From Woeseia sp. (lineage in GTDB: Bacteria > Pseudomonadota > Gammaproteobacteria > Steroidobacterales > Woeseiaceae), in the NCBI GenBank assembly GCA_021773015.1, contig JAJFKW010000001.1, forward strand, positions 3,455,305-3,519,304: a DNA stretch of 64,000 nt. The letters run 5' to 3'. Shown here piece by piece: positions 26,545-44,742 of this stretch. Positions within the stretch are counted from its first letter, which is position 1, and every line of letters starts with the position of its first letter. The notes beneath the pieces were generated by a model. It had not been told where the DNA came from, did no database searches, and worked only from the letters and a program-made list of their open reading frames with translations. A program made the position numbers and the translations under genes.

Positions 26545-26584
26545 AAAATATCTCTTATTATTATTGCTGCACGCCAATTAACAC

Positions 26585-26590
26585 TATAAT
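26585..26590 (+). promoter_or_regulatory. -10 element for the GFA-family gene
   Basis: A perfect TATAAT lies 34 bases before the ATG of the GFA gene. TTGCTG at 26564-26569 is the nearest -35-like hexamer, but the 15-base spacer is short. The AT-rich stretch here also separates the two divergent genes. Confidence 0.45.
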
Positions 26591-26624
26591 CCGTACAAAC
26601 GCGAGTGACTTTTGAGGATGTGAA

Positions 26625-27047: not shown

Positions 27048-27252
27048 CGAGTGATGTTTGACAATCGCCCGGCTGACAAGAGGGTGAGCGCGGCAAGAAA
27101 TTTAGAGTGTGATTCGAAACAGCCGAATACCGCTTGTTGATTTTTAGATAGATACATGGCCGATTTCGAGTGCGTTCGATGCGGTCGTGAACGTCGCTTA
27201 CGTCCCTGCGCTATTCCAGTTGCTTCGCGGACGACGTATATTCGCGAGGATG

Positions 27253-29985
27253 ATAGAGACGTCGGCGTTAATTAAAACCAAGGTGTTGGCACCGTTTAGC
27301 CGCCCCGGCATGGTACGACGCACTAGTTTGTTAGACACGCTGAATTCTGCGAAAAGCAAAAAGCTGGTGTCTATAACCGCTCCTGCCGGATTCGGAAAAA
27401 CAACATTGCTTGGGCAGTGGTATTCGTCATTGCAGGATGCCGGCGATACCACTTGTTGGTTGTCGCTGGACGCGAGCGACAATGATCCAGAGAGTTTCAT
27501 TCACTATTTGATCGCGGCGTTTCAGCAGTCGATCGAAAAATTCGGATTGCAGGCACTCCGCTATATGGACAACGCGCCACTTCCCGATATTTCCAAATCG
27601 CTGGTTTTCCTGGCGAACGAGCTGGTCGAATTTGAGAAAGACGTATTTCTATTTGTGGACGACTATCATCTTATTACATCGTCTGAAGTAAATCAGTTCG
27701 TCGAATTGCTCTTGAACGTTTCGCCTGAAAATCTACACATTGTATTGTCTGGCAGGTCGACACCGATGCTGCCGCTGGCAAGTTTTCGGGCGCGAAATGA
27801 TTTTCTGCAAATATTATCCGACAATCTTCGGTTTGACTTCGATGAGTCCAAGAGTTTTATGCTTGACTGTCAGAAGGTTGAGATTAGTAGCGAACAGGTC
27901 AAAACGCTGTTTTCCAGATGCGACGGTTGGGCTGCTGGCCTGCAACTGGCTTCCGTCTCACTGCGCGACGCAGAAAACCACGACGAGTTCATTCAGCAAT
28001 TCTCGGGTAGTGATCGAGACATTACAGACTATCTGGCAGCAACGGTGCTGGCACGGCAACCCGAGCACGTACAGTCGTTTCTTATCGGCACGGCCATTCT
28101 CGACCGATTTAGCCGTGAGTTGTGTAATGAGTTGCTCGACCGTCGTGATGCCGATGAAATTCTTCGCGGTTTGGAAGCAAACAATCTCTTTATCGTTCCA
28201 TTGGATCACGAACGGCAATGGTATCGATACCATCCGTTATTTCAGGAATTTCTGATCGCTCAGCTGAGTCTCGAACAGAAAGATTCGCTCAGCCGTTGCA
28301 ATCGAATTGCTAGCGAGTGGTTTCGGCGGGAAGGTCATCTGCACGAGGCGGTGACTTACGCATTGCGGGCAAATGACATGTCTCTTGCTGCAGACCTGAT
28401 CGAAATTCGGGCGCTTGAGGAGTTTCTTGACGGCCGAATGCCGAGAGTTGCTTCGTGGATAAAACGCATCCCGGTAGACGTTCAGCAACAGCGACCAAAA
28501 TTGATGTTGTTGCTCGGCACGGCGTTGTATCACATGAATCAAGCGGACAAGGCGGTATACGTCTGCGACCGGCTCGAAGAATGTGTTGCAAGACTGGTTG
28601 ATCAAGGTGATATGTCTTTTCGTGAACATCAGGATCTCGCCGGTGATATGGCGATTTTGCGGGCAGGCGTCAGCATGTCACTGGATAACGCGTCGGACGC
28701 GATTGAAGATGCGCCGCAGGAGGATTACTCGCATCCTGAATTTGTTGACGGTGTGATCAACAATATCAAGGGGTACTGTTTTTACGTTCTTGGGGAATTT
28801 GATTCGGCAAGAAAACATCTCGCGCTGGCACGCCGAGTGCACCGGCTCGCGGCTTCGGATTTTGGTGTCATGTATTCCGATTGTTTCTTATGTTTGCTGG
28901 AACTTGCTCAGGGAAATCTCAAGCGTGCACAGCAGATTGTCGACAATTTTCAGCATGCTCCAGATGACCTCGAGCAAAATCTCAGCGTTGCGTCGGCTGC
29001 AGATGTTGTCCGCGGAGCAGTTGCATATGAACTGAACGAGCACCACTCGATCGTCGAGTTACTGCAACCAAGATTGGTGGCGCTGGAGCAAGTTGGGCAC
29101 ATAAGTCTAATTCAACTCGGCTACGTGACGCTGGCAAAATATTTCGCTGCCAAGGGCGATTATGACGGCGCACTGCGGTTATTAGAAAGGCTCAACGTCT
29201 TATATCCACTCCCCGACAGCAATCTAAACCACAAACTTTTTGTGGGCTACCATCGAATTAAGATTCTGTTGCATGGCGGTAGGCGTTCAGAAGCGTTGAA
29301 AACCGCGTCAATGCTCGATATCGGATTGGATGACGCGCTGCCGGTTTTCACCAGTAAGTGGAGCCGAGAAGGCTTCCAACAACAGCTCATTCAGATGCGG
29401 CTTTGGCTGGCAGCCGGTCAGCAGGAGCCATTGATTTCCGTTGGAACACGTCTCTACCAGCAAGCACAGGAAATCGGTATGGGCTTTCGGGCGATAGAAT
29501 GTCTTCTTGTGTTGTCGCAGGCGCACTACAAGTCGGACAATAGGGACAATGCGGCCAATGCAATGCAGCTTGCGCTGAGTCACGCCTCAATGAATGATGT
29601 AATCCGCCTATTTGTAGACGAAGGTGCCGCATTAGTTCCGATTATCAAATTGGTGCAACGAAATCTCGCGGCGACCGATGACATTGTGCTAAGTCAATTC
29701 GTCACCAATGTGCTAGGCGCATTTGAAGGCGAATTGCGTGAGTCCGCAGAACATAATCACTCAATGTCTGCCGCCGGACTGATCGAAACGCTTAGCCAAA
29801 GAGAAATGGACGTATTGCATCTTATGGGACAAGGACATACCAACGGCTCAATTGCAGAAGCGCTTGGGATTAGCGAAAACACGGTCAAATGGCATGGCAG
29901 AAATGTATTTGGCAAACTCCGCGTGAGCAACCGTACGGCGGCGGTCATCACCGCCCAAGAATTGGGTCTTATAGATTCCCTGTGA
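27253..29985 (+). CDS. MalT-like LuxR-family transcriptional activator
   Basis: 910-residue STAND-type regulator. The N-terminal ATPase has Walker A APAGFGKTT at 43-51 and Walker B LFVDDYHLI. A long helical TPR-like sensor fills about 400-830. A LuxR helix-turn-helix ends the protein (LSQREMDVLHLMGQGHTNGSIAEALGISENTVKWH). Such proteins bind ATP and a small inducer, oligomerise and activate catabolic genes, as MalT does with maltotriose. The ATG at 27253 is used because homologues start just before ALIKTKVLAPFSRP; a GTG at 27187 would add 22 odd residues. It directly precedes the TonB receptor and catabolic run, which it probably activates. Confidence 0.9.
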   Translation: METSALIKTKVLAPFSRPGMVRRTSLLDTLNSAKSKKLVSITAPAGFGKTTLLGQWYSSLQDAGDTTCWLSLDASDNDPESFIHYLIAAFQQSIEKFGLQALRYMDNAPLPDISKSLVFLANELVEFEKDVFLFVDDYHLITSSEVNQFVELLLNVSPENLHIVLSGRSTPMLPLASFRARNDFLQILSDNLRFDFDESKSFMLDCQKVEISSEQVKTLFSRCDGWAAGLQLASVSLRDAENHDEFIQQFSGSDRDITDYLAATVLARQPEHVQSFLIGTAILDRFSRELCNELLDRRDADEILRGLEANNLFIVPLDHERQWYRYHPLFQEFLIAQLSLEQKDSLSRCNRIASEWFRREGHLHEAVTYALRANDMSLAADLIEIRALEEFLDGRMPRVASWIKRIPVDVQQQRPKLMLLLGTALYHMNQADKAVYVCDRLEECVARLVDQGDMSFREHQDLAGDMAILRAGVSMSLDNASDAIEDAPQEDYSHPEFVDGVINNIKGYCFYVLGEFDSARKHLALARRVHRLAASDFGVMYSDCFLCLLELAQGNLKRAQQIVDNFQHAPDDLEQNLSVASAADVVRGAVAYELNEHHSIVELLQPRLVALEQVGHISLIQLGYVTLAKYFAAKGDYDGALRLLERLNVLYPLPDSNLNHKLFVGYHRIKILLHGGRRSEALKTASMLDIGLDDALPVFTSKWSREGFQQQLIQMRLWLAAGQQEPLISVGTRLYQQAQEIGMGFRAIECLLVLSQAHYKSDNRDNAANAMQLALSHASMNDVIRLFVDEGAALVPIIKLVQRNLAATDDIVLSQFVTNVLGAFEGELRESAEHNHSMSAAGLIETLSQREMDVLHLMGQGHTNGSIAEALGISENTVKWHGRNVFGKLRVSNRTAAVITAQELGLIDSL

Positions 29986-30144
29986 AACCCAAAAATCGGC
30001 TGCCAACAATACGAAAGGATGGGTTCAAATAGAACGAAAGCTCATATAGTCACTCAGTGGTGAACACCACGCCGAATCGGTCATCTAGTTGAGTTTGAGC
30101 CGATCCGAACAGCGCAATCTACTGTGTATTGGGGGGACTAAGTC

Positions 30145-32433
30145 ATGAGTGCAGCGCTTGCCAGCAGAAAAGTACGCATCGGAAAGCGAATTCTCGGTGT
30201 ATCGTTATATTCCGCCGCGACTTTGGCGATCGGTATTTGTTTGCCATTCTACGCGCACGCCCAGGAGGGCGCCAAAAGATATCAACTCGAAGAGATTGTT
30301 GTAACCGCTCGCAAGCGCGAAGAGAGTTTGCAGGACGTACCGTCTTCGATAACTGCTATCACTGAATCTCAGCTGGACGAGCGCGGAAATGTCGAATTAG
30401 TCGACCTAGCGCGCAGCGTACCCAATCTCACGTTCAACGGTAATGGCAGCACGTTATCTGCAATCGGCATCAGGGGAATTGTCGCGGCGACGCGAAATAT
30501 CGGATTTGAGAGCGGAATTGGTGTTTATGTCGATCAGGTTTATGTCGGGCGGCCAGCCGGCTTTAATCAGAATTTGGATGATATTCAACAGGTCGAAGTA
30601 TTACGTGGCCCACAGGGCACGCTGTTTGGACGCAACACGATCGGTGGTGCAATTAATATTACAACAAAGACGCCGGGCGATGAGATTGAAGGCAAGATTA
30701 AGCTAACGGCGGGAGACTTTAGCCGATTCAACGCAAGCGGCTACATATCCGGACCGATTGCCAAAGATAAGGTATATGGAAAGCTAAGCGTGTATTCGAT
30801 TACTCGTGACGGATTCGTCGACAATATCGTCGACGGCTCAACGCTGAGTGACGAAGATCGGCAGGGCTACCGGGCGAGCCTAAGATTTACACCAACGGAT
30901 AATTTGGAAATAGCAATTAGTGCGGATGATATGGAAGAACGTACTAATCGCATGTTTACGCAATTTACGTCATTTGACGTGACATCGCCGTTAGCGGGAC
31001 TTTACCTTGGCCCTCTCGGTGGCAACCCCGCATTGGCGGCAACGCCAAATTTGACTGGGCAGGATTTCACGCCAGTAGAAGACCGGGATGTCAGCGGTCA
31101 AAGCTTGCGGGCAACGTTGGAGTTGGAGTCCGGTGCAAACCTCGTTTCTATATCGTCAATTCGAGAAACGGACTTTCTGCTACTCGCTGACGATGATACG
31201 ACGCCAATTTTCTTGTCCCACACCACATTTGACGACCGATCCGAGCTATTCACTCAAGAGTTGCGTTGGGAGTCTCCCGTCGGTGATACATTCGACTATC
31301 TATTCGGCTTTTACTACCAGGACTCTGATGCATCCGCCAGTCGATCGACCCTAATTACGACACCACCCGGTCTGCCATTTACGGTTAACGGTGCGGGATT
31401 TACGTTTGGGCCAGTCGGTTGTATCTGCAGCGAGTCCAGCGTCGAATCTGAATCATGGGCAGTGTTTGGAAGTCTTAATTACCGCTTCACGGAACGTGTT
31501 TCGCTGGCGGTCGGTCTCCGCTTCACCGACGAGGACAAGTCACTCAACTTCAACCAGGAGAACACAGCTTTCACGGGCCATCCAAACATTAACACTCAGC
31601 CGAGCATTAGCGACAGCGGTTTGTCAGGGAATGTAAGCCTGAGTTACGCGACGGATAATGTTACCTACTATGGCTCGATTGGTCGAGGGTTCAAGAGCGG
31701 TGGATTTAATCCCGATATCGTTCCCAATAGTGACATCACGTTTAGCGAAGAATTAGTCTGGACTTACGAATTGGGGCTAAAATCCATATTAGCCGACGGC
31801 GCCGTCCGCATAAATGGCGCCGTGTTTTTCACGGATTACCAAGATCAACAGGTACAGCGTCTCGGGTCCAGTCCAATCGGTGGAACTGGATTTCAAATCA
31901 GCAATGCCGATTCAGAAATTACCGGGGCCGAGGTCGAGTTAAGCGCTTTGCCTACAGAAAACTTGGAGCTCGGACTTGGTATAGGTTTGCTCGACCACGA
32001 ATATACGAGTTTCGCCGATTGCAGCACGACAGCTGACAACGCTATTGATCCGGTCACCGGGCAGTTGGTTCAGCTTGATTGCACCGGCAATAAGCTCTCT
32101 TATGTCCCTGACGTTTCATACAGTGCCTCAGTGAAATACGTCGTACCGTTAGGTTTTGCCGACCTAGTCAGTCGAGTAGAGTTTAGTTACAAGGACGAAG
32201 TATTTAGCGAGCCTGGAAATTTCGATAGAACATTCGTGCCGGACCAAGACAATATCGATCTGCGTATTGGTTTAGTGGCGGAAGACGGCTCATGGGAGTT
32301 GTCAGCGTGGGGCAAGAACTTGGGCGATAACGAGGATGAGCAGTTTTCCTGGTATATCCCGGCATTTCAAACGTCGTATTCCAGTTATTCGATTGGTCGT
32401 CAGTACGGCGTTGATTTCATCTACGGCTTTTAG
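30145..32433 (+). CDS. TonB-dependent outer-membrane receptor
   Basis: 762 residues. The signal peptide ends at YAHAQ, the TonB box is EEIVVTARKR, and the plug domain begins SLQDVPSSITAITESQL and includes GIRGI, DQVYVGR and RGPQGTLFGRNTIGGAINI. A 22-strand barrel runs to the final YGVDFIYGF with its terminal Phe. This type (no siderophore-specific features) imports scarce large or hydrophobic nutrients using TonB energy. GGGGGGA lies nine bases before the ATG. It is followed by the deacetylase, MFS, amidohydrolase and P450 genes, so it probably takes up the compound they process. It belongs to the same general class as the second receptor at 46.5 kb. Confidence 0.95.
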   Translation: MSAALASRKVRIGKRILGVSLYSAATLAIGICLPFYAHAQEGAKRYQLEEIVVTARKREESLQDVPSSITAITESQLDERGNVELVDLARSVPNLTFNGNGSTLSAIGIRGIVAATRNIGFESGIGVYVDQVYVGRPAGFNQNLDDIQQVEVLRGPQGTLFGRNTIGGAINITTKTPGDEIEGKIKLTAGDFSRFNASGYISGPIAKDKVYGKLSVYSITRDGFVDNIVDGSTLSDEDRQGYRASLRFTPTDNLEIAISADDMEERTNRMFTQFTSFDVTSPLAGLYLGPLGGNPALAATPNLTGQDFTPVEDRDVSGQSLRATLELESGANLVSISSIRETDFLLLADDDTTPIFLSHTTFDDRSELFTQELRWESPVGDTFDYLFGFYYQDSDASASRSTLITTPPGLPFTVNGAGFTFGPVGCICSESSVESESWAVFGSLNYRFTERVSLAVGLRFTDEDKSLNFNQENTAFTGHPNINTQPSISDSGLSGNVSLSYATDNVTYYGSIGRGFKSGGFNPDIVPNSDITFSEELVWTYELGLKSILADGAVRINGAVFFTDYQDQQVQRLGSSPIGGTGFQISNADSEITGAEVELSALPTENLELGLGIGLLDHEYTSFADCSTTADNAIDPVTGQLVQLDCTGNKLSYVPDVSYSASVKYVVPLGFADLVSRVEFSYKDEVFSEPGNFDRTFVPDQDNIDLRIGLVAEDGSWELSAWGKNLGDNEDEQFSWYIPAFQTSYSSYSIGRQYGVDFIYGF

Positions 32434-32489
32434 TGCGATCCGAGTCCAACAATGGCGACTCGATGACCATACCTAAGCAGAGTGCTTGA

Positions 32490-33590
32490 ATGAAAACCGG
32501 CATCGTATTTCACGAAATTTACATGTGGCATAACACCGGAAATTACGCTGGCGTGCTGCCTTACGGAAACCCAGTTCAGCCTGGTGAGCACTTCGAAAGT
32601 CCTGAGTCAAAGCGCCGCCTTCGAAATTTGCTAGAGGTGAGCGGTTTGCTCAGTGACTTGCAGGGGATCGAGGCGCACTCGGCGACCGAAGAACAGATTC
32701 TTCAGTTTCATTCCAAAGAACATCTAGAGCGAATCAAGTCGATGAGCGCAGGTTTTGGCGGAGACGGCGGTGGACTATCGCCGATTGGGCACGGCTCCTA
32801 CGAGATTGCGTTGCTGTCGACGGGCGGTGTCATTGCTGCTGTCGATGCCGTACTTGCTGGAACGGTAAGAAACGCCTATGCGTTGGTGCGTCCGCCAGGG
32901 CACCATGCGATGCCCGACACATCGATGGGCTTTTGCACGTTCGGCAATGCTGTCATTGCTGGAATGCACGCGTTAAACGAGCATGGACTTGAACGTATTG
33001 CTTTTGTTGATTGGGATGTACATCACGGCAACGGTACCGAAGCCGGTTTTTGGGACAATCCAAATGCATTGACGATTTCTGTTCATCAGGATAATTGTTT
33101 TCCACCGAATTCCGGATACTTGTCGGATATAGGGGCGGGTCCCGGAGAGGGGTACAATATTAACGTTCCGCTGCCGCCGGGAAGCGGTGTCGGTGCGTAC
33201 GAAGCAGTATACGAACGCGTTGTGCTGCCGGCGCTGTTGTCTTATCGACCGCAACTCATTGTCGTGCCGAGCGGTTTCGATGCAGGCGCGCACGACCCGC
33301 TCGGACGCATGATGATGCATAGCCAAGGCTACAAAGTACTTACTCAAAAGCTAATGCAGGTAGCCGACCAAATCTGCAATGGACGAATCGTCATGTGCCA
33401 TGAGGGAGGATACAATCCGGCGACCGTTCCCTTTTGTGGGCTAGCGGTGCTAGAGGCTTTGTCAGGAATAGACACTGGCGTGGTCGATCCATTTCAGGAA
33501 CTGTTCAACGGACTGGGCGGCCAGGAATTGCAGCCACACCAAGACGCTGCCATTAAGAAAGCCGAGAGGTTGCTGAGCAAGCTGCGCTAA
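32490..33590 (+). CDS. histone-deacetylase-like amidohydrolase (class II / acetylpolyamine type)
   Basis: 366-residue zinc hydrolase of the arginase/deacetylase fold that removes acyl groups from amines. The catalytic His pair is H138-H139 in RPPGHHAMPD. The metal ligands are D176 and H178 in DWDVHHGNG and D264 in GFDAGAHDP. The transition-state Tyr is in HEGGYNP. Bacterial members act on acetylpolyamines or other N-acyl amines rather than histones. The length and the MGFCTFGNAVIAG block fit the class II side. It begins 57 bases after the TonB receptor and its stop is two bases before the MFS start, so it is in an operon. The natural substrate is probably whatever enters by the receptor. Confidence 0.92.
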   Translation: MKTGIVFHEIYMWHNTGNYAGVLPYGNPVQPGEHFESPESKRRLRNLLEVSGLLSDLQGIEAHSATEEQILQFHSKEHLERIKSMSAGFGGDGGGLSPIGHGSYEIALLSTGGVIAAVDAVLAGTVRNAYALVRPPGHHAMPDTSMGFCTFGNAVIAGMHALNEHGLERIAFVDWDVHHGNGTEAGFWDNPNALTISVHQDNCFPPNSGYLSDIGAGPGEGYNINVPLPPGSGVGAYEAVYERVVLPALLSYRPQLIVVPSGFDAGAHDPLGRMMMHSQGYKVLTQKLMQVADQICNGRIVMCHEGGYNPATVPFCGLAVLEALSGIDTGVVDPFQELFNGLGGQELQPHQDAAIKKAERLLSKLR

Positions 33591-33592
33591 AC

Positions 33593-34750
33593 ATGGGCCG
33601 AGGCGCTGCCTACGACGTCAACCATCCGGCGAACGTATTTGCACTCGTTTGGCTTGGTTCAGTTGCGGCTTGTGTTCTATTGCTGGCGCCCGCATTTGTA
33701 GGTGCATTCATTGTCGAGTTATCAATGACTGCACAGCAAGCTGGATACATCATTTCTGTGGATATGGCCGGAATGGGTTTGGCGACGATTCCAGCTCTGT
33801 TTTGGCTGCACAGACTTAATTGGCGTCGGGTTGTAGTGACAGCGCTGATCGCAAATGCGTTTTGTCATTTCTTGAGCGCTGGCGCGAACTCATTCGAGTT
33901 GCTCGTTACGCTCCGCTTTGCCGCGGGATTGTTCGCCGGCACCGCGATGGCGGTCTGCCTGGCGTCACTTGGGTTGACGGAGCAGAGGGAGAGAAACTTC
34001 GGCTTGTGGGTAGTCGGTCAACTCGTGGTCGGGGCAGTCGGATTAGCGTTAATTCCGCACATGATTCGCGCATTTGGATTGATGAGTGTCTTTATCGTTA
34101 CCGCGTTAGCAAACTTAATCACAGTGGCGGTGGCGCAGAAATTGCCCGATGGCAGTCAGTCTCGTGTTCAATATCCGAGTTCCGGCGCGCGTGCTGAGTC
34201 TGCGGGCAATGCGTCGAAAATCGTGAGCGGCGTCGGTGGAATATTTTTGTTCTACATTTCTTTGAGCGCGGTTTGGTCCTACCTCGAACGAATTGGTACC
34301 GCAGTGGGACTTAGCGCTGAGTCGATTGGCTACTTTCTAAGTATCGCATCTGTCGCGGGAATTGGCGGCGCGATCACGGCGACAGTTTTGGGCGTAAGGG
34401 CTGGAAGAATCTGGCCTATCACTTTCGGAATGGTGACAATTCTAATATCGCTTGGCATGCTGCTTAGCCAGAACGCTGTGTTGGTCTATGCTATTTCGGC
34501 AAGCTTATTCAAATATGCATGGACGTTCGTAGTTCCTTATGCGCTGGCTGCGATAGCAAGCCTTGATCCAACGGGCCGGGCGATTGTGGTCAGTAATATT
34601 TTCATCGGTGGCGGATTGGCCGTCGGCCCTGCCATCGCGGGAAACCTGATTTTCGGTGCCGATTATTCGCCGGTTATTTGGCTGGGTATTATTGGTATGA
34701 TCTGTGCCTATTTACTAATTGTGCCTATGGCACTCTCATCAGTGAAGTGA
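33593..34750 (+). CDS. MFS transporter in the catabolic operon
   Basis: 385 residues with about 12 membrane helices. It opens with VWLGSVAACVLLLAPAFVG and the helix-2 region TAQQAGYIISVDMAGMGLATIPALFWLHRLNWRR. The second half is ALAAIASLDPTGRAIVVSNIFIGGGLAVGPAIAG. It resembles the MFS protein at 25.3-26.5 kb in the first two helices and may be a distant paralogue. It starts two bases after the deacetylase gene and precedes the lipoprotein amidohydrolase by 28-46 bases. It is likely the inner-membrane carrier of this pathway, taking up the product released in the periplasm. The cargo is not identifiable. Confidence 0.88.
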   Translation: MGRGAAYDVNHPANVFALVWLGSVAACVLLLAPAFVGAFIVELSMTAQQAGYIISVDMAGMGLATIPALFWLHRLNWRRVVVTALIANAFCHFLSAGANSFELLVTLRFAAGLFAGTAMAVCLASLGLTEQRERNFGLWVVGQLVVGAVGLALIPHMIRAFGLMSVFIVTALANLITVAVAQKLPDGSQSRVQYPSSGARAESAGNASKIVSGVGGIFLFYISLSAVWSYLERIGTAVGLSAESIGYFLSIASVAGIGGAITATVLGVRAGRIWPITFGMVTILISLGMLLSQNAVLVYAISASLFKYAWTFVVPYALAAIASLDPTGRAIVVSNIFIGGGLAVGPAIAGNLIFGADYSPVIWLGIIGMICAYLLIVPMALSSVK

Positions 34751-34796
34751 GCGGCAGATAACTTCCCGGTCCGTTGAAATGATCGCTAGGGGATGT

Positions 34797-36566
34797 ATGC
34801 AAAATAGTAGTCACAATTTGCCTCAATTGACAGCACGGCCATACGCGCATCTATTTGGCATCATTTTCCTGATCGTTGCGCTTGGGTCCTGTGAGGCAAA
34901 AAAACCGATACCCGCGGACGCCGCGGATCTTGTGTTGCACAGCGGGAAAATCTATACGGTCAACGACGCTAAACCATGGGCGCAGTCTGTTGCGGTTCGA
35001 GGTGGGAAAATTATCGCCATCGGATCTGACAATGAAGTTGCAGAATTGATCAGTGATGCAACGGAGCTCGTGAACCTGGGTGGCCGCATGGCAATGCCGG
35101 GCATAGTTGATATTCACTTGCACCCGACAACCGGCGCGATGGCAGAGTTGTTCGATTGCAGCTTTCCGTTTACGTCGAGTGTCGACGAAATTCTTCAGAA
35201 AGTAGCTACTTGTGCGCAGGATGCGCCAGCCGGACAGTGGGTGCGCGGCGGCCAGTGGCCGGTGAGTTTGCTCGCAGACAAAACAGCAATTACCGCCGCG
35301 ATGCTCGATGCCGTTACGCCGGACAATCCAGTGTTATTGATGGATTCGACGGTGCACAACGCCTGGGTAAATTCTGCAGCGCTATTAATTCTGGGTATTG
35401 ATGAGAATTCAGCAGACCCGCCCGGCGGCAGAGTCGTTCGCTTCGCTGATGGGCAGCCAACGGGTGTTCTCGTCGATGATGCCGCTTATGACGCGATGCC
35501 AGTACTACCGGATTACACGCTGCAACAATATCAATCTGCAATTCGATGGACGGTCGAAAACCTGCACGAATTCGGCGTTACAGCATTTATGGATGCGATC
35601 GCGGAGGCAGGTTCTCTCGAGGCATACGCTGAATTGGATCGCGCGGGACAATTGAATATGCGGGTGGCTGCGGCGCTGATATGGAAACGCTCGTGGAGCC
35701 AGCCGGAAAAGCAACATCGCGAGAACATTGAACAGCGGGATAAATATCGTACCGAGCATGTTAATCCGGACTTCATCAAGATTTTTCTCGATGGGATTCC
35801 ACTAACCCGCACGGCCTATTTGCTTGAATCGTACGCAACGGCGATGGACGGCGTGCCGCCACATCGCGGCAGTCCCTTACACAGTGACGACGAGTTAAAC
35901 AATGACATCGTGGATTTCGATCGCCGTGGTATGACGGTCAAGATGCATGCTGTTGGCGACGCCGCGCTGCGACAAGGCCTGAATGCCATTGCTGCTGCGA
36001 GGATGCACAACGGCGAATCCGGTTTACCACATCAAATCGGTCACGCAGGGCTAATACACTCAGCTGATATTCCAAGGTTTTCTCGGCTTAGTGCAATTCC
36101 CGAGATGTCGCCGATCATGTGGTATCCGATTCCTGGAGTATTCGCCGGGCAAATAGCAGCCGTGGGCGAGGAACGTGCGATGCATGCGTATCCGATCAAA
36201 TCACTAGTCGAGTCAGGCGCGGAGCCCGCGTACGGTTCTGACTGGCCTGCGATCGTTCCGGACCCAAACCCGTGGCCAGGTCTTGAAGCGATGGTTACGC
36301 GTCGCAACCCCTATCTGGATGCGCCACAGCAGGCACGTTGGGAGGATGAGGCAGTCGATCTCGCAACCGCGATCAAGATATTTACACTGAATGGAGCCAA
36401 GGCCCTGAATTTGTCGGAAGATACTGGCTCGCTCGAGGTTGGTAAGTCGGCGGACATCATTGTGTTGAGTCAAAACGTATTCGAAATTCCTGCTGTAAAC
36501 ATCGCAGAAACAAAAGTTGCATTGACGTTTTTTCAAGGTCAGTTGGTGCATGAGGACAATCGGTGA
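34797..36566 (+). CDS. amidohydrolase (YtcJ/AepA-like), lipoprotein
   Basis: 589 residues. A lipoprotein signal ends at LGSC, followed by an amidohydrolase-3 domain with metal-dependent hydrolase features: the composite N-terminal beta domain (LVLHSGKIYTV), the first ligands H-x-H in DIHLHPTTG, further His in the KMHAVGDAA and QIGHAGLI strands, and the final Asp in YGSDWPA. The lysine in the FIKIFLDG segment may bridge the metals. The ATG at 34797 (AGGGGA just upstream) is preferred over 34779, because it puts the lipobox at normal depth. It would act in the periplasm on an amide, imide or similar bond. Its stop overlaps the P450 start, so they are coupled. Confidence 0.9.
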   Translation: MQNSSHNLPQLTARPYAHLFGIIFLIVALGSCEAKKPIPADAADLVLHSGKIYTVNDAKPWAQSVAVRGGKIIAIGSDNEVAELISDATELVNLGGRMAMPGIVDIHLHPTTGAMAELFDCSFPFTSSVDEILQKVATCAQDAPAGQWVRGGQWPVSLLADKTAITAAMLDAVTPDNPVLLMDSTVHNAWVNSAALLILGIDENSADPPGGRVVRFADGQPTGVLVDDAAYDAMPVLPDYTLQQYQSAIRWTVENLHEFGVTAFMDAIAEAGSLEAYAELDRAGQLNMRVAAALIWKRSWSQPEKQHRENIEQRDKYRTEHVNPDFIKIFLDGIPLTRTAYLLESYATAMDGVPPHRGSPLHSDDELNNDIVDFDRRGMTVKMHAVGDAALRQGLNAIAAARMHNGESGLPHQIGHAGLIHSADIPRFSRLSAIPEMSPIMWYPIPGVFAGQIAAVGEERAMHAYPIKSLVESGAEPAYGSDWPAIVPDPNPWPGLEAMVTRRNPYLDAPQQARWEDEAVDLATAIKIFTLNGAKALNLSEDTGSLEVGKSADIIVLSQNVFEIPAVNIAETKVALTFFQGQLVHEDNR

Positions 36567-37801
36567 CTGGTTCGAACATAGCAGTTCGCTCAAAAGCGAT
36601 TCCAGTTATCGATGATGTGACATTCGAAGCGTTGTATTCGAATCCGTATCCAACTTACGCAAGGTTACGACGAGACGCACCCATCGCATGGCTAAGTGCC
36701 GCCAATATCAATCTGGTCACACGTTTTGACACGATAAAACACATTGATGCTCATGCAGATGCTTTCCCGGCGTTTGACCAGAAATCGCTGATGATCCGCG
36801 CAATGGGGCATGGCTTTCTTCGCATGGATGGCGCCGAGCATCGCGCAGAGCGTATGGTCGCGCAAAAATCTGTGACGGCCGATTTGATTCGCAATCACTG
36901 GTTTCCGCGCTTTCAAAGCATCGTGGATGACTTGATCGCGGGTTTCGAACACAGAGGCGAGGCTGATCTATTTACCGATTTCGCGGCGCCGATGGCGTCC
37001 CGTTGTCTTATGGAGCTGCTGGGCCTGACGAATGTTCGTTGGCAGGATCTCTGTACGTGGTCGCAGTCATTGATGGATGCGGTCGGCAATTATTCCGACG
37101 ATCCGACAATCTGGTCGAGGGGAGAGGAGGCATCCCGCGGGATCGACGACGCGCTTGACGAAGTATTAGGCGACAAGCGCAGCACGCCGGACCCAACTCT
37201 AGTGTCGCAGATGGCGAATTCCTCGGCTATGTCGCGAGAGAAAATTCGCGCCAATGTAAAGTTCATAATTGGTGGAGGTCTGAATGAACCGCGAGATGCG
37301 ACGTTGACTGCAATGTATTGTTTGTTATCCAACGTCTCTCAGTTGGCGAAAGTTCGCGCCAATCCATCACTTTGGTCTAACGTTTTCGAAGAAGCTGTTC
37401 GCTATTGCGCGCCAATCGGCGTTTACCCGAGGACTGTGGCGAACGATATTGAGTTGGACGGCGTCGATTTGAAGAAAGGCGATAGACTAGGGCTATGTAT
37501 TGCATCGGCTTGCCACGACGAGGCGCACTGGCGCAATGCTCAAGCGTTCGATATCGAGCGACCGAAAAGAAATCACTTGGCATTCGGCTCCGGACCGCAC
37601 CTGTGCTTAGGCGCTAAGACGGCGAGAATGCAGGTCGGTCAATTATCGGTGCCGGCACTGGTCGAGCGCTTACCCGGACTTAGCTTAAATTCAGAACTGA
37701 AAACTGAATTCGCCGGTTGGGTATTTCGTGGTCCGACAAGGTTGCCGGTGATCTGGGACTCCGGAAACGGATCAGCGAAGGGACTTTCGCGGCAGCCGTA
37801 A
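36563..37801 (+). CDS. cytochrome P450
   Basis: 412-residue soluble bacterial P450 starting with GTG inside the amidohydrolase stop. The haem pocket is canonical FGSGPHLCLG with ligand C348, and the K-helix ExxR is E277..R280. The I-helix is unusual: GGGLNEPRDAT (237-247) lacks the normal acid-alcohol pair (D/E-T) that helps activate oxygen. No ferredoxin or reductase gene lies nearby, so electrons must come from elsewhere, or the enzyme may use peroxide or a different mechanism. It ends the rightward run and converges on the aminotransferase gene, 11 bases away. It probably hydroxylates or dealkylates an intermediate of this pathway. Confidence 0.93.
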   Translation: MTGSNIAVRSKAIPVIDDVTFEALYSNPYPTYARLRRDAPIAWLSAANINLVTRFDTIKHIDAHADAFPAFDQKSLMIRAMGHGFLRMDGAEHRAERMVAQKSVTADLIRNHWFPRFQSIVDDLIAGFEHRGEADLFTDFAAPMASRCLMELLGLTNVRWQDLCTWSQSLMDAVGNYSDDPTIWSRGEEASRGIDDALDEVLGDKRSTPDPTLVSQMANSSAMSREKIRANVKFIIGGGLNEPRDATLTAMYCLLSNVSQLAKVRANPSLWSNVFEEAVRYCAPIGVYPRTVANDIELDGVDLKKGDRLGLCIASACHDEAHWRNAQAFDIERPKRNHLAFGSGPHLCLGAKTARMQVGQLSVPALVERLPGLSLNSELKTEFAGWVFRGPTRLPVIWDSGNGSAKGLSRQP

Positions 37802-37812
37802 ATGGTAGATCG

Positions 37813-38946
37813 CTAACCGAATAGCGGGCGTAAACGGGCAACGCCTTCCGTGATTTCCTCCTCGCTATAGTGCGCGAAACTCAATCGAAGGAAGCTGTTC
37901 AGCTCACCGCAACTGGAAAAGACCGCACCGGGTTGAAACCCGGTTTGATGTTCATTCGCAAGTTCCTTAATGGCAGCTGTGTCGGTCGATCTGGCCAGGG
38001 AGAGCCAGAAAAAGTAGCCGCCGTCGGGTCTGTTCCATTGTGCGATGTCGCCAAAGTGCTCCAGAAGTGCCGTTTCCATGGCTTCTACTCTAGACCGATA
38101 CGCATTTTTCAAAAGTGAAACGTGCGCGGTAAGCAAACCGTCGTCAATCGCATGGCGTACGATGTGTGAGGTGTAGTGATTGATGCTGCCGCCGCTATTG
38201 ATGAAGCCGTTTGAAAGCAGCAACTGGCGCAGATTTTCCGATGTCTGAATCCAACCGAGACGCAATCCAGGCGCAAGAATCTTAGAAAACGACCCAAGCG
38301 ACAGCACGGGTCCAGAATTGCAGTAGGTGCCGAAAGCCGGCGGCGGTGATTCGTAATACGATAGCAGTTGGTAGACTTCGTCGGCGACGATCAAGAAATC
38401 GTGCTGCCTACTAAGTTCTAGAATTCGTCGCCGACGTTCTTCGCTGAGACACTGCCCACCCGGATTGTGATAGCTGGGAACGGTATAGAGAAACGCCGGT
38501 TTGTGTTTTCGTAATTCTTCCTCAAGGCAGTCGATTCGTATTCCTTGGTCATCAATCGGGATACCGACAATATTCAGTCCACGATCGCGAAAAATTTGGA
38601 AGGCAAGAAAATAACTAGGTTCTTCGACGAATACGGTATCGCAGGGCTTCGCGAAAATCGACGATACCAGATCAAGTGCTTGCGAATTTCCGCCGGTGAC
38701 AAAAAGAGACTCCGCATTGACGGGTGCGCGATAGCCAGTGCTCAAATACCCAGCAAGTGAGTGCAAGAACCGTTCGTCGCCTGCTGTGACACCGTAATTC
38801 AATTCAATGGGTGTTGCTTTACGATAAAATGCTTCGCTCGCTTTGCGCATTAGCTCGACAGGCAACAAGTCGGCAGAAGGCTGACCAACCCCTAAGTTAA
38901 TGGTGCCAGGCGGCGGTGCGCCATCGAAAGTGACAGTGCTACTCAT
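37813..38946 (-). CDS. PLP-dependent aminotransferase, class I (MocR/2-aminoadipate-like)
   Basis: 377-residue class I/II aminotransferase resembling the catalytic half of MocR regulators and LysN-type 2-aminoadipate aminotransferases, without the HTH domain. The segment TPIELNYGVTAGDERFLHSLAGYL is diagnostic. The pocket has TGGNSQALDL, the catalytic Asp in IVADEVYQLL, the PLP lysine in SLGSFSKILAPGLRLGW, and a C-terminal Arg in FLRLSFAHY. It is the last gene of a leftward operon, its ATG overlapping the stop of the dehydrogenase gene (ATGA). With that dehydrogenase it can interconvert an amino acid, a 2-oxo acid and a D-2-hydroxy acid. The exact amino acid is unknown. Confidence 0.9.
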   Translation of the reverse strand: MSSTVTFDGAPPPGTINLGVGQPSADLLPVELMRKASEAFYRKATPIELNYGVTAGDERFLHSLAGYLSTGYRAPVNAESLFVTGGNSQALDLVSSIFAKPCDTVFVEEPSYFLAFQIFRDRGLNIVGIPIDDQGIRIDCLEEELRKHKPAFLYTVPSYHNPGGQCLSEERRRRILELSRQHDFLIVADEVYQLLSYYESPPPAFGTYCNSGPVLSLGSFSKILAPGLRLGWIQTSENLRQLLLSNGFINSGGSINHYTSHIVRHAIDDGLLTAHVSLLKNAYRSRVEAMETALLEHFGDIAQWNRPDGGYFFWLSLARSTDTAAIKELANEHQTGFQPGAVFSSCGELNSFLRLSFAHYSEEEITEGVARLRPLFG

Positions 38947-39935
38947 TTTATTAATCTGCTCGATTGCAGGACGTAGTGCGTAACGTCGTCGAAATTTCCA
39001 TGGAAATGGTTGAGGATATTTTTGGCCGACGTTGTCCGCGCCTGCATAATTGATTCATCAGAATAGAAGGCGGCATGCGGTGTCAGCAGCACGTTGTTTC
39101 GATTAACCAAGCCGCTAATGCCGAGATCGGGCGACTCGCTAGCCAGAACGTCGAGCCCAGCGCCCGCCACCTTACCGGTATCCAGCGCATGAACTAACGC
39201 ATCCTCGTCCACTAATCCGCCTCGGGCAACGTTGATGAAAAAAGGCGTTTTTGTCATTTGATCGAACGCCGCAGCATTGACAAAATTTGCATTCTCCGCG
39301 GTCAGGTTACAGTGTAACGAGATAATATCCGAGCGAGCGTAAATGTGCTTCAGCTCGCAAAGTTCGACAATTATTTGGTCGGCGTCAGTTTGTTTGACGC
39401 ATGGATCATTGGCAATGATCCGCAGACCGAAAGCCTGAGCTCGTTTTGCGACTGCCTGGCCGATCCGGCCAAGGCCAATCAATCCAAGCGTTCGCCCCTG
39501 TAGCCGCTTTAGTCCCGCAATGGCATCGAATCTCCACAAATGTTGTTCTTGTACGAGCTGATGATATTCAGGAAGCCGTCGACACAACGCTAAGATCAGG
39601 GCCAAAGTGTGGTCGGCAACCTCTTGCGTACAATATTCATCAACCGCCGAAACATTAACGTCGTTCTCCTGTGCTGCGGCAATGTCAATGGCGTTGTAAC
39701 CTGTCGCCGCTAGCGATATCAGTTGACAGTTTTTTAACTTTTGAATAACCGATTGTGAGAACGGCGCGAAGTCGGTAAGGATAAAGTCGGCACCGCAGCA
39801 AGCGTTGGCAAGCCCAGCGGAATTGCCGTCATAAACGTAGCGCCTAACGTTGAATGAATTGCCCCAAATACCCTGTTCGACGGACAGGTCCCGCCCGGCA
39901 TTTTCGGGCATATCAACGACAACGAGATCATTCAC
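38943..39935 (-). CDS. D-isomer-specific 2-hydroxyacid dehydrogenase
   Basis: 330 residues of the formate/glycerate/phosphoglycerate dehydrogenase family. The NAD site GLIGLGRIGQAVAKRAQAFG is in the middle. The catalytic Arg is in INVARGGLVDEDAL, the Glu in DVLASESPD, and the His in TPHAAFYSDES. It reduces a 2-oxo acid to the D-hydroxy acid or the reverse. Hydroxypyruvate reductase-type enzymes look like this, but the substrate is not fixed by the motifs. It is coupled by 4-base overlaps to both the symporter gene before it and the aminotransferase gene after it. This arrangement argues for one pathway of uptake, oxidation and transamination of a hydroxy or amino acid. Confidence 0.9.
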   Translation of the reverse strand: MNDLVVVDMPENAGRDLSVEQGIWGNSFNVRRYVYDGNSAGLANACCGADFILTDFAPFSQSVIQKLKNCQLISLAATGYNAIDIAAAQENDVNVSAVDEYCTQEVADHTLALILALCRRLPEYHQLVQEQHLWRFDAIAGLKRLQGRTLGLIGLGRIGQAVAKRAQAFGLRIIANDPCVKQTDADQIIVELCELKHIYARSDIISLHCNLTAENANFVNAAAFDQMTKTPFFINVARGGLVDEDALVHALDTGKVAGAGLDVLASESPDLGISGLVNRNNVLLTPHAAFYSDESIMQARTTSAKNILNHFHGNFDDVTHYVLQSSRLIK

Positions 39936-41332
39936 GATGCTGGTTTATCGGTGAGATTCAATACCGTAAATACGCTAAATGATACGGCGAGTCCTGGCCA
40001 TACCGGGTCAAAGTCGTATGGTGCGCCTGCAGCGGTTTGCCCTAATAAATACCACCCAACAACTGTCGTTAGCGACAGGGCAATACTCCAAAATGCGGCT
40101 CGCTTGTTCGCTTTTGCGAAATAGACGGCTGCGATGCTAGGCAAGAACAGCGCGGCGGAGTTCACGGTAAAGCCGACCAGCAATATGTCGATAACGTCCT
40201 GCATCCGCCATGCCATCACCGCCGCAACGATGCCAATGACTACCGACAAACCAATGCTTAGACGAAATAAATTGTTTGGGCCAATATCGGGATTGACGTA
40301 TCGTTGATATACGTCTTTGCTGAGATTGGCGGACGCAGTAAGAATGCAAATGTCCGCCGTGGACATGAGTGCAGCAAGAATGCCGACCAACACCAGTCCT
40401 TTCAGTCCAACAGGAAATGTACTGAGCACAAAGTTAGACAATACGTCGCTACTGTCTTCTAGACCGGGAAATAGCATTGCGGACGTCATACCAAGCCAGC
40501 TGGCGCCTATGGCAAGTGGAATTAACAGGATCACCGCAAGCAGCGTGCCGCGTTTCGCCGTTGCAGCATTACGCGCGGCAAATGTCCTCGTGTAACTGTC
40601 CATCGCCGTAAAAAAACTTAGTGTGATCGAGACGATCAATGCCAGGATAGTTCCCCATCCCCAACCACCAGGGTCGAAAAATGTCTCAGGAAGCTCGCGA
40701 TTGAGCGCTGCCCAAGTGCCACCCTGACTGATTGCGACAGGAATACCAACGATAACCACACCGATAAACAATAAGGTGAATTGTACCCAGTCGGTGTAGG
40801 TAATCGCGAGAAACCCACCGGTTGCCGTATAGACGATTATGATGGCGCTGGCGATTAGCAACGCCGTGCCAAAATCCCACCCCAAAAGTGTGTGCAGAAT
40901 CGCGGCGGCGGCCGCCAGTTGCCCCGCCGCATACGCGATAAATGCCGCGACAGTCGTTATCGTCGCAACAATTCTTGTTCTACCGTCGTAGCGAAGCTCC
41001 ATGAGTTCGGGGTAGGTCAGCAAACTGTGCTGGTTACCCAGTTGCTTCACACGGACCGCAAAAAACAAGCCAAACAGCAAACAACCAATGGCCATCGCGA
41101 TCGTGTACCAGCTTGCAGATATTCCGACCTCGTAAGCCTTCGATGCTGACCCGACAATTGCGGCGCCACCGACCCAGGAGGCCATCCACAGGCAAGCTAT
41201 AGAGAGCGTGCCGATCTTGCCGCTCGCAACGAAATAATCTTCAACGTTATTTTGCTTGCGGCTGGCGTACAGGCCGACCAAAATCATCGCAATCAGATAC
41301 GCGATAATAATTGCTGTATCAATGGTCGCCAT
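39932..41332 (-). CDS. sodium:solute symporter (SSS family)
   Basis: 466 residues, about 13 membrane helices. The family core is visible: LYASRKQNNVEDYFVASGKIGTL, ASWVGGAAIVGSASKAYEVG, and the fifth-helix GGFLAITYTDWVQFTLLFIG. It uses the sodium gradient to bring in small organic solutes (pantothenate, proline, sugar or organic acid types). It heads a leftward operon, overlapping the dehydrogenase gene by four bases. The BNR/VPS10 protein starts upstream on the same strand with a 70-base gap. It probably imports the hydroxy or amino acid used by the two following enzymes. Confidence 0.9.
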   Translation of the reverse strand: MATIDTAIIIAYLIAMILVGLYASRKQNNVEDYFVASGKIGTLSIACLWMASWVGGAAIVGSASKAYEVGISASWYTIAMAIGCLLFGLFFAVRVKQLGNQHSLLTYPELMELRYDGRTRIVATITTVAAFIAYAAGQLAAAAAILHTLLGWDFGTALLIASAIIIVYTATGGFLAITYTDWVQFTLLFIGVVIVGIPVAISQGGTWAALNRELPETFFDPGGWGWGTILALIVSITLSFFTAMDSYTRTFAARNAATAKRGTLLAVILLIPLAIGASWLGMTSAMLFPGLEDSSDVLSNFVLSTFPVGLKGLVLVGILAALMSTADICILTASANLSKDVYQRYVNPDIGPNNLFRLSIGLSVVIGIVAAVMAWRMQDVIDILLVGFTVNSAALFLPSIAAVYFAKANKRAAFWSIALSLTTVVGWYLLGQTAAGAPYDFDPVWPGLAVSFSVFTVLNLTDKPAS

Positions 41333-41401
41333 GATTTTCTCTAAATTGCGCTGCCAACTTCGAGGTCTTCGGCGTTAACCAAGTCATACTCGCTCTTGTC
41401 T

Positions 41402-44400
41402 TCAATTTTTCGGCAGCATGCTACCAGGTGTCCAAGGAGCGCCAGCGTCATGCAGTCGTCGCTCGAATTCCGGAAGTTTTTCCCTAACCAGATCGTCCAG
41501 TTGCCGACGCACCGTCGAATATTCCTCATTGGCAATTTCAAGGCTGCGTTTTTGCGTTGCAGTAGGTCCGTAAGTGGAATATGCCGAGCCAAATCCTGCG
41601 ACCTGAATTCGTTCTGCAATTGTATGCGGCTCCAGGCCACCGATTTCGCCTTTGGCTTTGTTGCCGCTTAAAGCGGCGTCGACATCGTAAAGAACTTGTT
41701 TGATGTTATGCAGTTCGATATCCAATGCGTTAGGGTCGCCTGTTGACAACTCCAGCGCCTGTTCGAGGTAATCGATGCGTTCGAAGGTGTTGGTGACAAT
41801 CTCGTCAGCGCCGAATATGGAGCGCTCCAACGAAGCCACGCGCTGCCAATGCGCGACTGCTTCCTCGGGCGATGAACCGGGTAGTGCGCCGCCACGCATT
41901 TTCGCAACATCGAAGCTTACCGGCCCGCTGAGTGTTGTGCTTTGACCATCCACCCGTTTCATCAGCGTTGCGGTGTACTGTCCCGGTTCCGCGAGATAGC
42001 CGGTGGGCGGTCCGAAATACGACTCTTCCGTTGGCAGAGCCTCGTTTTGGGGGTAACGAAGATCCCAGGCGACACGATGGATGCCCTGCGTTTTTTCCCC
42101 GCTGATTCGGCGGATAATCTCGCCGTCGCCATTCTTAATCAGAACGAAAACAGTGGGGTCGGTCTCCCTCCTTTCCGCCTCAACAGCATCCCAACCCGGA
42201 AATGGCGTATCCGCGTTATCCTCCAACTGCGCTTTTTCTTTGGTTTGGCGTTTTTCCTCACGGCTTTGCAATTCTTCTGCAAGATAATAGGTGAGCACCG
42301 CACCAAACGGCGGGTTCTCGGCAACGAAATACCCGGCACCCTGGTCACTTTGTCCGGCTCCGCCTAGCCGACTACCCTGTTGATACCAGCGCGCCGTGCG
42401 AGCCGGAAATAACATCGCATTGTTTTCCAGCAATGCTCTTTTGGTGATTGAACGCAAAGGCGTGTAATCATCCAATACGTAAAACCCGCGACCGAACGAG
42501 GCGCCAACCAAGTCATTTTCCCGTCGTTGTATAGCGAGATCCCTAAATGAAATCGTCGGCACGTCGCCAGTAAGTTTTAGCCAACTTCCACCGCCGTCCA
42601 CGGTGAAAAAGAGGCCGAATTCGGTGCCGGCAAATAACAGATCAGGCTGCACGTGATCTTGCACAACGCGCCAAACGATATGACGGTCCGGTATATCGCC
42701 TGTCACCGACGACCAGGACCGGCCGCGATTCGTACTCTTCACTAGATAGGCGCTGAAGTCGCCATACTTGTGATTGTCGAGTGCAACATAAACGGTATTG
42801 GAATCGAATAGATCGGCTTTGATGTCGTTTACAAATGCTGTGTCGGGAACGCCAGGCAACGTGCCCACTTCAATCTTGCGCCAGGATTCGCCGCCGTTCT
42901 CAGTAACTTGAATGAGTCCGTCATCTGTACCGATGTAAATTAGACCTTCCTCAAGCGGCGATTCGCCAATTGACGTGATCGTGTTGTAGGCGGACATTGC
43001 GTAGATGTCCCACGGTGCATCCCACGACCATTTTCGGTCCATGAATTCAAACTGCATACGATTTTGGTCGCGCGTCAGATCGCCGGACAGTGCTCGCCAA
43101 GTGTCGCCTCTATCATCTGAACGCCACAATCGATATGAAGCAAAGTAAAGGCGCGCGGGATTGTGCGGACTTACTAAGATAGGCGCGTCCCAATTGAATC
43201 GCTCTGCCGGTTCGCCCTTTTCCGGTTGCGGTTTGATGTATACGAACTCGCCATTGGTGCGGTCAACGCGCACGAGGTTACCCTGCTGCCACTCGGCGTA
43301 CATGATGTCCGGGTTGCCTGGTTCGGTTGCCGGTTGATGTCCGTCGCCAAATAGCACGACAAACCAATCTGCGTTGCGGATGCCATTATCGTTGTCCGTG
43401 CGAGACGGGCCGCCCTGCGTATTGTTGTCCTGCGTGCCGCCAAATATATTGTAGAACGGCTCCGCGTCGTCCAATGCAACTTTGTAAAACTGTGTTACCG
43501 GGAGGTTGGCAACAAAACGCCAGTTCTCGGCCAGATCAAAACTTTCGTAGAGACCGCCATCTGTGCCGATTAGTAAGTAGTCTTCATCGTCGGGTCTAAA
43601 CGTCAGGGAATGATTGTCCGAGTGTTTGGCGACCTCAGTCATAGTGCGAAATGTTTTGCCACCGTCATCGGATACGTTCATGCGAACGTTTGCGAGATAT
43701 ATTCGATCAAACGCATGCGGACTTGCATATAGTTCTTGATAGTAGTGTGGACCGGTACCGCCCGATACAGTCTCCGACATTTCTTCCCATGATGCGCCAC
43801 GATTACTGGAGCGGAAGACTTTGCCTTTACGGCGGTCTAACTCAATTGCGGCATAGATGACGTCCGGCTCCTGCGGCGATATCGCGAGGCCGATCTTGCC
43901 CATGTTGCCTTCAGGCAAGCCTTCTGTCAGTTCGACCCAAGAACCGCCGCCGTCTTCAGAGCGGTAGATGGCGGTTTCAGGACCGCCGCCCATGTAGCCG
44001 GCAACCGTTCTGTGATGTTGCCACGTCGCGGCGTATAGCCGTTGCGAGTTTCGCGGGTCAATTAACAAATCGGTCGCGCCAGTCCACTCTTCATCGCCTA
44101 GGGTTTTCGTCCAGCTATTGCCGCCGTTGGTCGTTTTATATACACCTCGCTCCCCACCTTTGGACCACAACGGCCCCTGCGCCGCAACCCATACAGTATT
44201 GGAATCTTCCGGTGAAACGACAATTTCAGATATATGTTGCGAGTCCTTCAGCCCAAGGTTCTCCCAGGTATTGCCATCGTCGGTGCTCCGGTACACGCCG
44301 TCGCCAAAGCCAACATGTCGACCGCCTACATTTTCGCCCGTGCCAACCCACAGCGTATGCGGATTAGTTGGATCAATAGTGATTGCACCGATTGAATAGA

Positions 44401-44677: not shown

Positions 44678-44742
44678 GGCTTTCCCCCGCATATTATTTT
44701 TTTCGTGAGGTCGTGAGTGACCGACCTTGATGAATGGCGTCG

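Follow-up and report, generated by a model that had tools for sequence, protein, structure and literature searches.

In a 64,000-nucleotide stretch of the Woeseia sp. genome (assembly GCA_021773015.1, contig JAJFKW010000001.1, positions 3,455,305 to 3,519,304; hereafter the window), a 14-kb region of nine genes falls into two modules. Module 1 (27187-37801, forward strand) encodes a MalT-like regulator, a TonB-dependent receptor, a class-II histone deacetylase (HDAC)-like zinc amidohydrolase (HDAH), a major facilitator superfamily (MFS) carrier, an amidohydrolase of the Amidohydro_3 family and a cytochrome P450, and is a recurring locus for uptake and amide hydrolysis. We propose, with a probability of roughly 0.55, that it is a substrate-inducible locus for the uptake and breakdown of N-acylated arylethylamines, which would probably be methoxylated. 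Module 2 (37813-41332, reverse strand), with genes for an aminotransferase, a D-2-hydroxyacid dehydrogenase and a sodium symporter, is a separate amino- or hydroxy-acid operon conserved on its own.

Recurrence of the uptake and amide-hydrolysis module

Profile scans of the window proteins placed all nine open reading frames (ORFs), none of them interrupted, in the families that an earlier note on this DNA had named. The intergenic gaps of module 1 are, in gene order, 159, 56, 2, 28 and -4 bp, so that HDAH, the MFS carrier, Amidohydro_3 and the P450 form the tight, co-directional run described in that note.

HDAH has matches in 35 of the 396 genomes searched in the order (E <= 1e-60), in 6 of 369 in the class (E <= 1e-100) and in 21 of 249 in the phylum (E <= 1e-90), the window's own genome being included in each count. 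The three closest orthologues found (66-69% identity) lie in loci L042, L062 and L041. The gene order in L042 is MalT-like regulator, TonB receptor, amidase, HDAH and Amidohydro_3, and that in L062 is MalT-like regulator, TonB receptor, amidase, HDAH and MFS carrier. L041 contains glutamine-synthetase-like, MFS, P450, HpaD-like dioxygenase (126 bits, under the model cut-off of 316), GABA-transaminase-like and reductive-dehalogenase-like genes, followed by HDAH, MauE and a MauD-like gene. In a second family, many loci combine Amidohydro_3, a TonB receptor, HDAH, an APC permease and an amidase. MalT-like genes with 30-38% identity to that of the window are present in L042, L062, L141 and L142, immediately upstream of HDAH in the last two. 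Relatives of the MFS carrier adjoin HDAH in L062 (41% identity) and in Klebsiella and Agrobacterium (35%), where the two genes overlap by 4 bp.

To quantify this association, the 6 kb around each of 36 HDAH genes was compared with 26 control stretches, 5-13 kb long, drawn from other contigs of those genomes. TonB receptors (21/36 versus 2/26), Amidohydro_3 (15/36 versus 1/26), amidases (10/36 versus 0/26) and APC permeases (14/36 versus 0/26) are all enriched near HDAH (Fisher p 4e-5 to 0.0035). Class-III aminotransferases (7/36 versus 1/26), glutamine synthetase (3/36 versus 0/26), Mau-type genes (3/36 versus 1/26) and MalT-like genes (2/36 versus 0/26) were also counted. The P450 and the MFS family of the window each appear once among the 36 loci and in 0/26 controls, so the exact gene set of the window is not a fixed unit. 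The 36 loci leave out L047 (the same place as L070), L061 (inside L062), L076 (a 36% HDAC that is not 1b-like) and the P450 loci L067 and L068; two genomes (G317 and G330) contribute two loci each, and four further matches in the order (G287, G350, G361 and G372), never taken with full flanks, stand outside the count. Control tiles under 5 kb, including three whole short contigs, were dropped.

The hydrolase and the amine-catabolic genes near its relatives

The top Protein Data Bank (PDB) matches of the window HDAH are HDAH (379 bits), the propanil hydrolase PrpH (373 bits), the dimethoate hydrolase DmhA (368 bits) and KpHdaH (9glb), with alignments that start at residue 2 and run through the L1 region. 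The matches to cluster 1b enzymes extend from residue 2 to residue 338 or beyond, out of 366, at about 348-379 bits. The catalytic residues H138-H139, D176/H178/D264 and Y308 are all present, at a constant offset of 5 from KpHdaH numbering, and no signal peptide is apparent by eye. By these matches and motifs the window HDAH resembles bacterial deacylase cluster 1b. Passages of Graf et al. 2024 (PMC11532494) describe bacterial HDAC-like enzymes as widespread and less well understood than their eukaryotic counterparts, and group the HdaH enzymes in cluster 1b together with the aryl-amide hydrolase PrpH, acting on propanil, and the N-methylamide hydrolase DmhA, acting on dimethoate. In the portion consulted of a wastewater study (PMC9420511), an HDAH groups with a DmhA that cleaves paracetamol, in keeping with activity on aryl amides.

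A tblastn search with HDAH found 28 plasmids, of which 18, mostly chosen for an annotated match, were examined over stretches of varying length (flanks of 6-9 kb, and 40 kb in two cases); 17 carry annotation. Monoamine or 4-hydroxyphenylacetate genes lie in 4 of these 17 neighbourhoods, and an aldehyde dehydrogenase in 9. On a Klebsiella aerogenes plasmid, HDAH is found near a gene annotated as 'monoamine regulon transcriptional regulator', atsBA, moaE, moaF and feaB. Around HDAH in Agrobacterium CFBP7129 are hpaR, hpaE, hpaD, hpaH, hpaI and 4-hydroxyphenylacetate 3-hydroxylase with a flavin reductase; Pantoea piersonii has hpaD, hpaE, hpaR, a LuxR regulator and an aldehyde dehydrogenase, and Bacillus badius has 4-hydroxyphenylacetate 3-hydroxylase, a class-III-type aminotransferase and an aldehyde dehydrogenase. 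On other plasmids either transporters predominate, as in Ruegeria, or the content is mixed, as in Micromonospora, where a decarboxylase and acetyltransferases are present. The Klebsiella plasmid HDAH is very likely an orthologue of the crystallised KpHdaH, because VTL at 23, GKEAP at 99 and LLEFIQQQQ at 340 are the same motifs at the same positions as given for KpHdaH in excerpts of PMC11532494, a comparison of motif positions rather than of full sequences.

Loci in the genomes searched point in the same direction. A quinoprotein amine dehydrogenase heavy chain lies within 5 kb of HDAH in L048 and scores higher as aromatic amine dehydrogenase (152 bits) than as methylamine dehydrogenase (108 bits); in L050 an amine dehydrogenase light chain lies within the same distance. 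Homologues of the aromatic amine dehydrogenase heavy chain occur in 30 of 36 HDAH-positive genomes (the 36 include G006, whose only HDAC is more distant), as compared with 12 of 44 HDAH-negative genomes, defined by no match at E <= 1e-60 (n=80, p 5e-7). The difference persists inside a single family, f10 (26/31 versus 6/14, p 0.011). In the window's own genome, contig C4 (293000-312000, L125) encodes an aromatic amine dehydrogenase heavy chain (186 bits versus 93 for methylamine dehydrogenase) and light chain (165 versus 151 bits), along with an aldehyde dehydrogenase, a kinase, a class-III aminotransferase, two MFS paralogues, a TonB receptor and, from weak model matches and by eye, sulfatase-like and Rieske-type oxygenase genes. 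Its aldehyde dehydrogenase is 63% identical to one beside HDAH and Amidohydro_3 in L045, and its kinase and class-III aminotransferase are 51% and 61% identical to a pair upstream in L062.

The P450 adds a possible link to methoxylated substrates. Its best solved relative is PDB 6g71 (336 bits; next best 149), with 164 of 388 aligned residues identical (42.3%) and a common I-helix motif, GGGLNEPRD. The 6g71 protein is CYP1232A24 of Arthrobacter, which is linked to alkaloid (papaverine) O-demethylation. In P450 nomenclature, more than 40% identity to a member places a protein in the same family, and the window P450 would accordingly belong to CYP1232. Plasmid P450 homologues (47-49%) adjoin ferredoxin and reductase genes, and a Rhodococcus homologue is also near protocatechuate dioxygenase and ring-hydroxylating dioxygenase genes. 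The window's own genome has two P450s and, elsewhere (C1:346227), a ferredoxin homologue.

From these observations we infer a route in which the TonB receptor would bring the amide across the outer membrane, a periplasmic Amidohydro_3 could make a first or alternative hydrolytic cut, and the MFS carrier would move the compound inward. Hydrolysis of the amide by cytosolic HDAH would then release a carboxylate and a free arylethylamine, and removal of an aryl O-methyl group would fall to the P450. Amine oxidation may be carried out by gene sets such as those beside HDAH in some relatives and, in the window's own genome, by the aromatic amine dehydrogenase, aldehyde dehydrogenase, and kinase and class-III aminotransferase of contig C4.

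Several points weigh against this assignment. No amine oxidase or dehydrogenase is found among the genes scanned at window 25348-44692, so the island does not itself qualify as an aromatic amine catabolic locus. Among the HDAH-positive genomes, 6 of 36 have no amine-dehydrogenase match, and 8 of the 36 HDAH neighbourhoods contain none of the families sought. The regulators and receptors match those of the window at family level (27-41% identity), and this includes the TonB receptors of L042 and L062, only about 27-41% alike. Both the neighbourhood and the amine-dehydrogenase counts come from phylogenetically related loci, and several queries of the control comparison were taken from the case loci, which inflates counts. 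On the NCBIfam methylamine dehydrogenase model, the light chain of L050 reaches 195.0, just under the cut-off of 196.85, so the amine there could be methylamine, and neighbourhoods with glutamine synthetase, GABA-type transaminase and APC permease fit aliphatic amines equally well.

These last points raise the rather unlikely alternative that module 1 serves N-acylated aliphatic amines (methylamine, polyamines, N-acylethanolamines or similar), with HDAH releasing an amine that would then be dehydrogenated, gamma-glutamylated or transaminated. The frequencies of glutamine synthetase, class-III aminotransferase and APC permease near HDAH given above are in line with it, as are a Burkholderia HDAH that sits with glutamine synthetase and an aldehyde dehydrogenase, and the kinase and class-III aminotransferase pair upstream in L062, which resembles phospho-amine lyase pairs. 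Aromatic amines are favoured instead by the hpa and moa genes, the aromatic amine dehydrogenase and the O-demethylase-like P450. Among the enzymes expressed by Graf et al., the parts consulted confine polyamine deacetylase activity to a cluster 4 enzyme (PMC11532494); since the window HDAH is cluster 1b-like, the N-acyl polyamines that the earlier note had put forward become less likely as substrates.

In vitro work raises a further objection to an arylethylamine substrate: in the sections consulted of PMC11532494, KpHdaH deacetylates acetyl-lysine peptides (KM 18 uM, kcat 0.057 per s), and VsHdaH does likewise. Such activity would suit a protein lysine deacetylase that regulates the pathway rather than acting as one of its enzymes. 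We regard this role as improbable given the slow turnover of KpHdaH and the two cluster-1b enzymes that are small-molecule amidohydrolases (same source, in part). The 17 annotated plasmid neighbourhoods also argue against it, consisting mostly of transporters, regulators and catabolic enzymes; acetyltransferases, by product name, appear in one (Micromonospora).

Two further features of the HDAH loci may be recorded here. The reductive-dehalogenase-like protein encoded beside HDAH in L041 (684 aa, L041:6950-9004) scores 204 bits against an NCBIfam cut-off of 160, and together with the HpaD-like dioxygenase it is possibly part of a route for halogenated tyramines. A pair consisting of an APH-type kinase and a protein of class-III aminotransferase fold is located upstream of the HDAH module at L062:668-2988 and beside amine dehydrogenase genes at L145:953-3209, and might act on beta-hydroxy arylethylamines by a kinase/phospho-lyase route.

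A convergent operon conserved on its own

Module 2 is the convergent, overlap-coupled operon that the earlier note had recognised, with a 4-bp overlap at each junction and 11 bp between its aminotransferase and the P450. It was taken there as part of one 14-kb pathway, in which all nine genes would act on a single complex amide nutrient and module 2 would handle the amino- or hydroxy-acid half. Adjacency and convergence favour this view, as does a relative (G182) that carries both HDAH (L046) and module 2 (L088), though on different contigs. The distribution of module 2 speaks against it. The dehydrogenase has a match (E <= 1e-70) in 6 genomes besides its own among 246 of the order; the aminotransferase adjoins it in 6/6 of these relatives and the symporter in 4/6. 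HDAH, P450 and Amidohydro_3 have no match in the stretches taken around module 2 in 6/6 relatives, and symporters, dehydrogenases or aminotransferases of the module 2 type are present in 0/36 HDAH neighbourhoods. Because module 2 is conserved alone and absent from the 36 HDAH loci, we reject the single pathway, which now appears improbable. Uptake and deacylation hold for module 1 as a recurring set, and the search for the same genes and order in other genomes recovers the module 1 core, with module 2 found elsewhere.

In L089, module 2 lies near D-aminopeptidase and D-serine-dehydratase-like genes, which suggests a use of amino acids or peptides and is a further argument against a shared amide pathway. 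TonB receptors are present in two module 2 loci (L084 and L088). A gap of 69 bp separates the symporter from a Vps10/BNR gene upstream of it in the window, and module 2 may start with that gene, because Vps10 homologues are also close to the dehydrogenase-aminotransferase pair in 2/6 relatives (L084 and L089). The aminotransferase reaches 232 bits on the model for MppQ (enduracididine aminotransferase; cut-off 540), and the symporter 146 bits on the PutP proline symporter model (cut-off 515.5). Some sodium:solute symporter is located beside HDAH in 2 of the 17 annotated plasmid neighbourhoods, a point in favour of the nine-gene pathway, and such symporters may accordingly have a role for HDAH substrates.

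Other components and comparison with known systems

The features of the region are collected in Table 1. A promoter and terminator scan gave fewer matches than in shuffled sequence. The MalT-like ORF opens at GTG 27187; judging from the N-terminus of the L042 homologue, its true start is probably ATG 27250. On the NCBIfam MalT equivalog the regulator scores 391 bits, under the cut-off of 537, and is thus MalT-like rather than MalT. The two 20-nt repeats between the regulator and the TonB receptor are weak candidates for activator sites, as two such short copies can arise by chance.

Table 1. Features of the two modules and their immediate surroundings in the window
Feature	Position	Strand	Evidence
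MalT-like LuxR-family ATP-dependent activator (LAL type)	27187..29985	+	Pfam TPR_MalT 100 bits, GerE 65 bits
Two imperfect 20-nt direct repeats, 23 bp apart	29998..30040	+	70% identity between copies
TonB-dependent outer-membrane receptor	30145..32433	+	Pfam plug 63 bits, barrel 123 bits
HDAH, class-II HDAC-like zinc amidohydrolase	32490..33590	+	Hist_deacetyl 284 bits
MFS carrier	33593..34750	+	MFS_1 63 bits
Amidohydro_3 amidohydrolase	34779..36566	+	Amidohydro_3 317 bits (Pfam cut-off 29.7)
Cytochrome P450, candidate aromatic O-demethylase	36563..37801	+	PDB 6g71 336 bits
Fold-type I aminotransferase (MppQ / 2-aminoadipate class)	37813..38946	-	Aminotran_1_2 132 bits; PDB 1wst 214 bits
D-2-hydroxyacid dehydrogenase	38943..39935	-	2-Hacid_dh_C 184 bits
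Sodium:solute symporter	39932..41332	-	SSF 138 bits
Vps10/BNR beta-propeller protein, secreted by eye; outside the earlier note's list	41402..44692	-	Sortilin-Vps10 110 bits

The Amidohydro_3 protein carries HLH, KIFLDG, HAVGD and GSDW, the metal-ligand and catalytic motifs of its family, and is probably a periplasmic lipoprotein, as an N-terminal signal and lipobox are plausible by eye. N-substituted formamide deformylase is a member of the same family. With these motifs intact, the island might degrade an isonitrile or formamide natural product, Amidohydro_3 acting as the deformylase and the other genes as accessories. This seems very improbable: the family scan finds no isonitrile-hydratase type among the island proteins, and the PDB relatives (E up to 1e-10) are only two uncharacterised hydrolases, at 84 and 76 bits.

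Two proteins were considered as guides to related islands and set aside. Relatives of the MFS carrier occur in 59 of 246 genomes (E up to 1e-30), which makes it a broad family and unsuitable as a specific marker; of its three best matches outside the own genome, those in L122 and L123 have SDR genes next to them and no HDAH, and the one in L124 adjoins a TonB receptor and an amidase. P450 orthologues were likewise rejected as a guide to a common island. The Pseudomaricurvus orthologue (62% identity, L011) has no HDAH match nearby and lies near a TonB receptor and ORFs that resemble, by eye, Rieske-type oxygenases and a ferredoxin reductase; around the relatives in the window's order (33-34%, L067 and L068) no HDAH, Amidohydro_3 or TonB receptor match is found.

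Some further observations concern the surroundings. A second MFS gene in the window (25348-26577, reverse strand) is a 26% paralogue of the module 1 carrier, and its 59% relative in G006 (L076) adjoins a different HDAC-family gene. Just upstream of the regulator, a GFA-domain protein (26625-27047, forward strand) might conceivably handle formaldehyde from demethylation. A P450 homologue in L005 (G014:C4:25073-26203) has one TGA inside the match and is either a pseudogene or affected by a sequence error. Away from the region, an MttB-family methyltransferase gene (11690-13234, reverse strand) contains an Rfam PYLIS_3 match at 12097-12196 (reverse strand; 42 bits, gathering threshold 38). Its ORF reads through without an internal stop and so looks like a non-pyrrolysine MttB homologue.

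A wider reading, which we put forward tentatively and at somewhat less than even odds, is that hydrolysis of N-acyl arylethylamines (N-acyl tyramines, phenethylamines and O-methylated forms) for monoamine catabolism is the dedicated function of the cluster-1b 'histone deacetylase' family, from Bacillota to Pseudomonadota. Lysine activity would then be incidental, and the island would be a variant to which TonB capture and P450 O-demethylation have been added. Bacterial HDAC-like enzymes have so far mainly been treated as protein deacylases and drug targets. If the gene context is right, the entire subfamily has its place in the metabolism of neurotransmitter-like monoamines, and with it the crystallised Klebsiella enzyme; this would change the meaning of inhibiting cluster-1b enzymes. 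In the main text of Graf et al. (PMC11532494), the words 'tyramine', 'monoamine' and 'gene cluster' have 0 occurrences, and the open-access literature yielded no paper combining histone deacetylase, TonB-dependent receptor, amidohydrolase and cytochrome P450, and nothing relevant on class-II histone deacetylase gene clusters in amide degradation.

Compared with known systems, the window HDAH shares its catalytic motifs and a near full-length match with the cluster 1b enzymes HdaH, PrpH and DmhA. Those have been studied as isolated lysine or pesticide hydrolases, according to the parts consulted of PMC11532494, whereas the window HDAH lies in a TonB and P450 uptake-catabolism locus. The P450 resembles CYP1232-type enzymes in its 42% identity and GGGLNEPRD motif, but it has neither a ferredoxin nor a reductase gene adjacent, unlike the homologues in L094 and L095. 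The clusters for aralkylamine or aromatic amine dehydrogenase are linked to HDAH or co-occur with it; here that gene lies outside the island, on contig C4. In the enterobacterial moa/ats monoamine (tyramine) regulon and the hpa (homoprotocatechuate) pathway, an MFS gene related to that of the window overlaps HDAH inside the Klebsiella and Agrobacterium clusters; none of moa, hpa or amine oxidase is among the window genes scanned, which instead include a TonB receptor, a MalT-like regulator, Amidohydro_3 and a P450.

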